DNA from: Chthonomonadaceae bacterium
GTDB lineage: Bacteria > Armatimonadota > Chthonomonadetes > Chthonomonadales > Chthonomonadaceae
Assembly: GCA_025054835.1 (NCBI GenBank)
Contig: JANWZQ010000138.1
Coordinates: 1 to 37,622, forward strand
Direction: 5' to 3'
DNA: 37,622 bases
Shown: positions 11,928 to 19,740 of the stretch, one piece after another
Numbering within the stretch: position 1 is the stretch's first letter
Layout: the number at the start of each line of letters is the position of its first letter
Notes under the pieces: model-generated
What the model was told of the DNA's origin: nothing
Databases searched by the model: none
What the model saw: the letters and a program-made list of their open reading frames with translations, nothing else
Translations under genes and position numbers: made by a program

Positions 11928-11972
11928 TTTAACCAAAAATTAACATTTTCTTAACATTCCGGGTGTCATAAT
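11928..11972 (+). promoter_or_regulatory. Pho-box-like triple repeat and -10 box before the first pilin-like gene
   Basis: Three 8-bp repeats, TTTAACCA (11928), ATTAACAT (11939) and CTTAACAT (11950), recur every 11 bp, followed nine bases later by CATAAT (11967-11972), a -10-like box. No consensus -35 is present, as is usual for promoters activated by OmpR/PhoB-family regulators. Period and repeat match the published Pho-box design (PyTTAAPyPy(T/A) three times with 3-bp gaps in cyanobacteria; TTAACA-type repeats in Bacillus). The surroundings (11770-11990) are strikingly AT-rich. Regulator identity is inference. Confidence 0.55.
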
Positions 11973-12052: not shown

Positions 12053-12895
12053 ATGAGGCAGAAAGCTTTCACGTTGATCGAGTTACTCGTTGTCATCGCC
12101 ATCATCGCCATTCTGGCGGCGATCCTGTTCCCGGTGTTCGCACAGGCGCGCGAGAAGGCGCGACAGGCCAGCTGCCTGTCCAACATGAAGCAGCTGGGTA
12201 CAGCAGCCCTGATGTATGTGCAGGATTACGATGAGCGCATGCCCTCCGATGCCTACGATAATGCCCGGGGCGCCCCTGACGGCGACTGGGGCAAGGACTA
12301 CTGGGTGTTCCACTTCCGTCCCTACATTCGCTCGAATGTGGGCAACATTCAAACCGGCGCCGGAAGCATCTACACCTGCCCCAGCCTGCGCCAGCTGACC
12401 GTGCTCGACGAAAGTTACGTTTCGGACTACGGACTGCCTCCGAACTACCCGCAGATCGCATGGGGACTGGTGCCTAGCCCTGACGGCCTGTATCGCTACT
12501 ACTGCAGCTACGCGATCAATGAGCATCTGGTGGATCTGCCGCCTCCCTCATGGCCCCGACAGGACATCGAAGGTCCGGAGCTCGCCCGCTGGGAGGCACC
12601 CGCGGTGAACTTCCTGTTCCTTGAGGCCAACAAGTCGGAGCTGGAGGGTGATGAGCTCGCCGGGCAGTATGTCTCGTTCCCGAACGGCTGGGTCGGACAG
12701 ATGATTGCGCACAACGAAGGCAGCAATTTCACCTATCTGGATGGGCATGCCAAGTGGCATCGCATTGTCATTCGCAACAACGACGCCCGGGTAGCCACAA
12801 ACTGGATCTTCCCGCCCGGACAACGCAACGCCCGGGATGACTGTGGCCCCTGGACGGCGCCGACCTACGACGACAACCCCTGCCCGCAACGCTGA
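12053..12895 (+). CDS. DUF1559-type pilin-like protein with H-x9-DG motif
   Basis: A 280-residue protein with a type IV prepilin / type II pseudopilin N-terminus: a short basic leader, then [20 protein letters not shown] with the conserved Glu5 of the mature protein. It continues [16 protein letters not shown], a version typical of Armatimonadota and Planctomycetota. The C-terminal part contains H-x9-DG (His in IAHN, then YLDGH), the processing-associated motif of this expanded family. A leader peptidase would cleave before the Phe. The ATG is preceded by a strong GAGGTGAGGAG. These proteins are usually present in dozens of copies and their roles are unknown. The phytase gene follows on the same strand after a 13-bp hairpin. 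The second copy in this window starts at 18892. Confidence 0.9.
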
Positions 12896-12900
12896 TGCTG

Positions 12901-12939
12901 GAACGGCTTCTACTCCACACTGGTCGGTAGAAGCCGTTC
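12901..12939 (+). terminator. 13-bp perfect hairpin between pilin-like gene and phytase
   Basis: GAACGGCTTCTAC (12901-12913) pairs perfectly with GTAGAAGCCGTTC (12927-12939) around a 13-nt loop. It starts 6 bp after the stop codon. TCTCGG rather than a T-tract follows, so it may be a leaky terminator, a transcript-stabilising stem or a factor-dependent stop. Confidence 0.5.
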
Positions 12940-12958: not shown

Positions 12959-14098
12959 ATGCTCTGTGCCGTGTCTCGTCTCTGGCCTGCACGCTCTCTG
13001 CTGTGTGCGACTCTGCCCTTGCTGTTTCTATCGGATCAACCGGCCGACGCACCTCTGACCGCAACTCCGGTTCTGGCCACACAGCCCGTGAGCACCGATC
13101 CGGACGATCCTGCCATCTGGGTGCATCCAGACCGTCCCGAACGTTCCCTGCTGCTGGGCACCAACAAGACTGCGGCACCGGACGGTGCGCTTTACGTCTT
13201 CGACCTGCGCGGGCGCGTCCGTCAGGTGATCCGCGGGCTGGATCGCCCCAATAACGTGGACGTGGAGTATGGCCTGCGCCTGAATGGCCAGCCTGTCGAT
13301 ATTGCGGTTGTCACCGAGCGCCTGCAACGGCGATTGCGTGTGTATCGCATCTCCCCGCGAACAGGTCAGCTGCAGGACATCACGTCCTTCGGAAACACGC
13401 AGGTTTTCACCGGGGAGCCCGGGGAGCAGGGCGCGCCGATGGGCATCGGGCTCTATCGGCGTCCGAAAGACGGTGCGATCTTCGCCATTGTCTCGCGCAA
13501 GGAGGGCCCGACAGAAGGGTATCTCTGGCAGTATCGCCTGCAGGATGATGGTCGGGGTAGAGTCGCAGCTGTGCTGGTCCGGAAGTTCGGGCGCTTCAGC
13601 GGCCGGGGCGAGATTGAAGCCATTGCTGTGGACGATCCACCCGGCTACGTCTACTATGCCGACGAGGGGGACGGTATTCACAAGTGGTATGCCGACCCGG
13701 ACCATCCGGATGCTGATCGGGAGCTGGCTCACTTCGGGAAAACGGGCTTCCAGGGCGATCGGGAGGGCATCGCGATTTACGCCCAGGCTGACGGCACTGG
13801 ATACGTGCTCTGCACGGATCAGTTGCCGGGAAACAGCGCGTACCACCTGTTCCGGCGCGAGGGAGAGCCGGGCAATCCGCACGACCATTCCCGAACCATC
13901 CGTATCGTTCTTGGCGGAGCGGACGAGACTGACGGACTGGACGCCACAGCGGTGCCACTCGGCCGCGCCTTCCCCGGTGGGCTCATCATCGCCATGAACA
14001 GTGGGAAGAAGAACTTTCTGGTGTTTCGTCCCGAGGATTTCGGCCTGACAGCACGACCTGCAGCGCTACGGGGAAGCAGAACGAAATCCCATCCGTAG
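12959..14098 (+). CDS. Secreted beta-propeller phytase-like 3-phytase
   Basis: A 379-residue protein with a signal peptide (about 1-30) and a region matching the beta-propeller phytase (BPP) family, which hydrolyses phosphate from calcium-phytate outside the cell. Family signatures in order are DPDDPAIWVHP (47-57), GTNK, LYVFDLRG, RPNNVDVEYG, the GEIEAIAVDD calcium/active-site region, YYADEGDGIHKW, GDREGIAIY and the C-terminal DETDGLD. Length fits the ~350-residue propeller plus signal. It sits 64 bp after the pilin-like gene on the same strand, separated by a hairpin, and its 3' end overlaps the convergent MFS gene by 33 bp. Start: the ATG at 12959 lacks a good ribosome site. Phytase activity is likely but not certain, since related propellers act on other phosphates. 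Confidence 0.85.
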   Translation: MLCAVSRLWPARSLLCATLPLLFLSDQPADAPLTATPVLATQPVSTDPDDPAIWVHPDRPERSLLLGTNKTAAPDGALYVFDLRGRVRQVIRGLDRPNNVDVEYGLRLNGQPVDIAVVTERLQRRLRVYRISPRTGQLQDITSFGNTQVFTGEPGEQGAPMGIGLYRRPKDGAIFAIVSRKEGPTEGYLWQYRLQDDGRGRVAAVLVRKFGRFSGRGEIEAIAVDDPPGYVYYADEGDGIHKWYADPDHPDADRELAHFGKTGFQGDREGIAIYAQADGTGYVLCTDQLPGNSAYHLFRREGEPGNPHDHSRTIRIVLGGADETDGLDATAVPLGRAFPGGLIIAMNSGKKNFLVFRPEDFGLTARPAALRGSRTKSHP

Positions 14099-18687: not shown

Positions 18688-18754
18688 TCCTGTTTCTGCT
18701 GGCAGGGGACTTCCCGGCTAAAACTGCCAAAAATTCCAGAGTTACAGATCTTTT

Positions 18755-18788
18755 CTTCATCTTTTCTTAACATTCACACGGGTATAAT
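18755..18788 (+). promoter_or_regulatory. Pho-box-like repeats and -10 box before the second pilin-like gene
   Basis: CTTCATCT (18755) and CTTAACAT (18766) repeat at 11 bp, and TATAAT (18783-18788) follows nine bases after the second repeat. The last repeat and its distance to the -10 are the same as in the site at 11950-11972, and the bases TTTTCTTAACATTC are shared. The third repeat expected further upstream is poor. The ATG is at 18892, so the leader is about 100 bp. Confidence 0.5.
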
Positions 18789-18891
18789 CTCATCCGCCAG
18801 TGGCCCATGGCAGGCCAGTATGCAGAAAGCCCTGTCAAGGCTGTCCCATCTCCAACAGTACCGTTCTATCTTTCACTTCTGGAGGACGCAC

Positions 18892-19739
<848 letters not shown>

Positions 19740-19740
<1 letters not shown>

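Follow-up and report, generated by a model that had tools for sequence, protein, structure and literature searches.

Upstream of a pilin-like gene in the genome of a Chthonomonadaceae bacterium (assembly GCA_025054835.1, genome G000, here called the host; 3.71 Mb, 97% complete), three short TTAA repeats lead up to a -10-like hexamer, and a secreted phytase is encoded behind the pilin. Is this element the binding site of a phosphate-starvation regulator, and what would a pilin-like gene be doing under its control? The locus lies in the window, that is, the whole 37,622-nucleotide stretch analysed here.

A triple direct repeat in a promoter layout

An earlier note on this DNA had described three 8-bp TTAA repeats at exact 11-bp steps, ending nine bases before a -10-like box. 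When the coordinates were reread, all of them were exact: TTTAACCA occupies 11928-11935, ATTAACAT 11939-11946 and CTTAACAT 11950-11957, with the linkers aaa and then ttt between them, and the nine bases TCCGGGTGT separate the last repeat from the -10 element. The features of the locus, and of a second one in the window, are as follows.

11928..11957, + strand: predicted Pho box, three 8-bp repeats at 11-bp steps (direct reading; match to a pst-trained profile)
11967..11972, + strand: -10 element CATAAT, 12 bases past the last TTAA and 10 past the 7-mer CTTAACA (spacing peak over 59 sites)
12053..12895, + strand: pilin-like gene with N-terminal methylation motif and DUF1559 (Pfam)
12901..12939, + strand: perfect 13-bp inverted repeat between pilin and phytase, arms 12901-12913 and 12927-12939 (folding z -3.2, no T-run)
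12959..14098, + strand: secreted beta-propeller phytase, PF02333 (Pfam)
18750..18789, + strand: second, weaker predicted Pho-box promoter, one clear TTAAC box and TATAAT at 12 bases (pst-trained profile)
18892..19740, + strand: second pilin-like gene, behind the promoter at 18750..18789 (methylation-motif search)

A pattern search of the whole host genome found the perfect triple TTAAC-N6-TTAAC-N6-TTAAC only once, at this site. With up to two mismatches the genome contains 17 matches, as compared to none for the reversed pattern, and with up to three mismatches the window contains four, all at or adjoining the 11928-11957 site (shuffle mean 0.05). Moreover, for the 300 bases 5' of the pilin gene, 0 of 200 dinucleotide shuffles scored as high for two boxes plus a -10 element. 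A generic sigma-70 scan did not report a promoter at 11928-11972, because this promoter lacks a -35 hexamer, as expected for an activated one.

The possibility that A+T-rich intergenic DNA simply generates such repeats gains some substance from relatives, in several of which the reversed pattern also matches often; in G004, for example, the triple pattern gave 27 matches vs 19 reversed. As the triple pattern alone does not discriminate in several relatives, sites in these genomes were judged by a sequence profile and by their distance to the -10 element. For the host, the reversed-pattern and shuffle controls, together with the recovery of the site by a profile trained on pst promoters, have already refuted this explanation, and we regard its probability as practically nil.

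Host boxes precede mostly pilin-like genes

The host encodes 60 proteins with a pilin methylation motif. Of 11 distinct pattern sites in the genome, six are found no more than 350 bases upstream of a pilin-motif gene on the same strand. When 59 pilin upstream regions were inspected directly, nine carried two TTAA-like boxes 11 bases apart and, 11 or 12 bases further on, a -10-like hexamer (0.05 in shuffles). Genome-wide, the host box thus marks mostly pilin-like genes, and the pilin at 12053-12895 is therefore probably a true member of the regulon and not a gene that merely happens to precede the phytase.

Several further sites were seen. On contig C73 (L022:11630-15355), four TTAA boxes stand before a gene for a GntR/periplasmic-binding-type regulator, behind which a DUF1559 pilin and then a sulfatase are encoded; by gene order this is another predicted pilin-hydrolase unit. 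Genes for Alginate_exp (PF13372) outer-membrane channels are also preceded by boxes, both in the host (L025:7857-7883) and in G002 (L280). Two Pho-box-like sites, L265:940-986 on C75 and L029:7395-7432 on C138, have no clear target gene, the former being followed by a possible short lipoprotein frame of about 60 aa.

The element recurs at pst operons of relatives

The host genome alone could not reveal a link to phosphate, because no member of the PstS, PstC, PhoU, Pit or Na/Pi cotransporter families was matched in its 97% complete assembly, with the PstC search positive in 14 of 14 control genomes. The usual phosphate-sensing partner is hence either missing from the host or located in a gap. 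Since every cell must import phosphate, we tentatively favour an assembly gap over a true loss of pst.

Among 20 relatives, 17 had PstC above the cut-off. In all 16 genomes with readable upstream DNA, TTAA direct repeats were present upstream of the pst operon or of a pst-linked unit, such as a porin-pstS unit leading into the operon; in G006, the pst region runs to the contig edge. For G003 and G018 the linkage between box and pst is an inferred one, as the boxed unit is located at a contig end and the remaining pst genes are on a different contig. In most of these relatives the boxes are 11 or 12 bases from the -10 element, as in the host. Only two clear boxes were found at pst in G001, G002 and G011, and a good -10 element at the usual spacing is absent at pst in G016 and G017. 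Across 59 collected sites, -10-like hexamers peaked 11 and 12 bases past the last TTAA (21 and 11 sites, respectively, with a background of about 3). The genes carrying boxes across genomes encode Porin_O_P proteins, PstS, GDPD, PF04185 phosphoesterases and purple acid phosphatase.

Regarding gene order, the pst units of several relatives open with a porin-like gene (L226:4236-5834, and similarly in L232, L237, L239 and L242). The porin of L226:4236-5834, whose gene is preceded by a box, combines SLH and phosphate-selective Porin_O_P domains. One box match in G002 (L248) falls inside a coding region.

A profile, R1, was trained on the pst promoters of 14 relatives and contained neither host sequence nor any pilin promoter. 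Applied to the host genome, R1 gave 10 matches with modest E-values of 0.001-0.5, among which the 11928-11957 site ranked second (E 0.0026). Seven of the 10 precede pilin-like genes, namely the 11928 site, the 18750 site in the window, single sites on C89, C139 and C177 and two on C163; the others belong to a GDPD gene on C150 (PF03009, E 1.4e-52), to the gene that follows a boxed pilin on C38, and to an orphan position on C75. Under uniform placement the share before pilins corresponds to P of about 2e-16, a value that is optimistic because intergenic DNA is A+T-rich, although the shuffle control agrees in direction. The pst promoters of G002 and G009, being part of the training set, necessarily ranked first in their own genomes, and further matches there included pilins and PF04185 phosphoesterases.

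In sequence, a Pho box is marked by at least two direct repeats spaced 11 bp apart, by a distance of about 10 bp to the -10 element, and by its occurrence upstream of phosphate-transport genes in the same organism or in related ones. At 11928-11957 there are three such repeats, the spacing reads CTTAACA-N10-CATAAT, matching the peak over the 59 sites and most pst promoters, and the element precedes phosphate-transport genes in 16 relatives. As judged from these sequence comparisons, the element is very probably a cyanobacterial-type Pho box of the host's phosphate-starvation regulator, the same high confidence applying to our explanation as a whole. The earlier note had compared the layout to that of PhoB/PhoP-class promoters. 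This assignment is strengthened by the pst operons of relatives but needs to be refined with regard to the type of box, which is that of SphR (CTTAACCT) and not the CTGTCAT of E. coli.

A candidate regulator and kinase

Two OmpR-type response regulators were found in the host, along with a weak match in a 1,048-aa frame. One of the two, a 227-aa protein encoded on C47, adjoins a PAS-HisKA kinase and shares 64-68% identity with regulators that five relatives encode at their pst loci, as compared to 38-41% for the other OmpR-type regulator. Against the NCBIfam PhoB model (TIGR02154) the C47 regulator scored 263.4 bits, below the cut-off of 296.2, and we therefore call it PhoB-class by its homology to the pst-locus regulators. 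Its DNA-binding domain aligns with that of E. coli PhoB, and the alignment takes in the recognition-helix stretch RTVDVH; the HIRRLR of E. coli PhoB corresponds to HVRWLR or a similar sequence in the host clade. Such an altered recognition helix would fit the altered sequence of the box.

The same regulator might bind the box in response to a signal that is no longer phosphate, placing the pilins under a WalR/RpaB-like control of the envelope or of surface growth with pst as just one target. Consistent with this idea, the C47 regulator scored slightly higher against YycF (270 bits, cut-off 340) than against PhoB, most host boxes precede pilin-like genes, and Pst and PhoU are absent from the host assembly. 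However, the best models of the adjoining kinase are PnpS (380 bits, cut-off 400) and PhoR (310 bits, cut-off 334), which, although both remain below their cut-offs, rank ahead of WalK. Homologous regulator genes are found at the pst loci of five relatives, and genes for GDPD, phytase, PF04185 phosphoesterases and purple acid phosphatase have the box in front of them as well. Given these findings, we consider a changed signal quite improbable and retain phosphate starvation as the predicted input.

Pilin-like genes are paired with phytase and phosphatase genes

The description of the downstream genes as a pilin-like protein followed by a secreted phytase was confirmed by Pfam. The pilin ORF, which is preceded by a purine-rich Shine-Dalgarno-like stretch, exceeded the gathering scores of both DUF1559 (38.1 vs 23.3 bits) and N_methyl (35 vs 21.2 bits), and the phytase ORF, beginning 63 bases past the pilin stop, exceeded that of PF02333 (162.6 vs 21 bits, E 1.7e-47). 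Relatives of the phytase include L087 (Chthonomonadales) and L104 (Armatimonadota), which together with the DUF1559 pilin repertoire point to Armatimonadota; since Bryobacteraceae sequences are equally close to the phytase, the enzyme may have moved between phyla.

The inverted repeat at 12901-12939 is possibly a partial terminator or an mRNA processing element, and owing to its presence, full co-transcription of pilin and phytase is likely rather than certain. If the hairpin ended transcription, the box would drive the pilin only and the phytase would have its own promoter. The perfect 13-bp arms and the folding z of -3.2 speak for such a terminator, whereas the stem lacks a T-run and a promoter scan found no sigma-70-like promoter between the two genes. 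In addition, the pilin-phytase order with a box before the pilin recurs in seven genomes, so that a pilin-only promoter appears unlikely to us, and we continue with a shared promoter for both genes.

A pilin-like gene directly upstream of a phytase was found in no fewer than nine genomes besides the host (L104, L107, L116, L122, L123, L125, L127, L143 and L145). The two-box plus -10 layout is present upstream of seven of these nine pairs, with scores equalled by at most 2 of 200 shuffles; for the L145 pair, the boxes are clear and the -10 element is poor. In L087, the phytase has no adjacent pilin and the box stands directly before the enzyme gene (R1 E 1.4e-6). Similar pairings involve other phosphatases: boxed pilins precede a PF04185 phosphoesterase in G002 and on host contig C163 (there behind a second pilin), and a purple acid phosphatase and a metallophosphoesterase in G003. 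By sequence, DUF1559 pseudopilin genes thus make up a large share of the predicted Pho-box regulon, which is unexpected. The portions of the DUF1559 literature available to us make no mention of phosphate. The general type II secretion operon of the host (T2SSE, T2SSF, T2SSG) is encoded on C127.

A model for the locus

We propose that under phosphate starvation the PhoR-type PAS-HisKA kinase encoded on C47 would phosphorylate the neighbouring PhoB/SphR-class regulator of 227 aa. Monomers of the regulator would then line up head to tail on the three TTAAC repeats, each occupying one 11-bp turn of the helix and together covering the -35 region. The bound regulator would recruit a sigma-70-type RNA polymerase to the CATAAT -10 element and thereby activate both the pilin-like gene and the phytase gene. 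Of the two products, the pilin-like one is probably a pseudopilin that passes through the type II secretion machinery encoded elsewhere in the genome, and may aid the export or display of the phosphate-releasing enzyme. The model builds on features read directly from the genomes: the repeats and their spacing, the conservation at pst operons, the homology of the regulator and the recurrence of the pilin-phytase order. From these we infer regulator binding, induction when phosphate is low, read-through of the hairpin into the phytase, and the function assigned to the pilin. A broader idea, possible but rather doubtful at present, is that the phosphate-starvation regulon of this family recruited DUF1559 pseudopilins scattered through the genome, every one of them dedicated to the export or display of the secreted enzyme encoded beside it. 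DUF1559 pilins in general would then be interchangeable tips, specific to their substrates, on one shared type II secretion machine, and the regulator suited to each enzyme would switch the corresponding module.

For a bacterial group that has been little studied, the analysis yields a Pho-box consensus (TTAAC-N6 repeats, 11 or 12 bases to the -10 element) and a candidate phosphate regulon; in the open-access literature searched, we found no paper combining 'Pho box' and 'Armatimonadetes'. Likewise, the abundant and functionally unknown DUF1559 pilin-like genes gain a testable role, a subset of them apparently being under phosphate-starvation control and standing next to genes for phytase or phosphatases.

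Comparison with known systems

In Synechocystis and other cyanobacteria, the SphR Pho box consists of at least three 8-bp repeats of the CTTAACCT type with 3-bp linkers and precedes pst and phosphatase genes (PMC1906773). The element described here shares the repeat length, the linkers, the phosphatase targets and, in relatives, the pst targets, but it is found in a genome with Armatimonadota-like gene content, where it stands mostly before DUF1559 pilin-like genes. In the PhoB boxes of E. coli, the last unit lies 10 bp before the -10 element (PMC1906773; PMC4415409). This distance, the 11-bp direct repeats and the PhoB-like winged-helix domain are common to both systems, whereas the host repeat is CTTAACA instead of CTGTCAT, and Pst and PhoU were not found in the host assembly. 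The PhoP box of Bacillus subtilis, which consists of TTAACA repeats and belongs to a PhoP/PhoR-type system, resembles the host element in its TTAACA core, its 11-bp steps and its type of two-component system. The nearest functional parallel may be seen in Pseudomonas aeruginosa, where components of the Hxc type II secretion system accumulate together with the secreted phosphatase LapA under phosphate limitation (PMC9769906), an arrangement that the pairing of DUF1559 and phosphatase genes resembles by analogy. Whereas P. aeruginosa employs a complete, dedicated system, the host has single, scattered DUF1559 pilin-like genes, several of them paired with phosphatases, apart from the general type II secretion operon.
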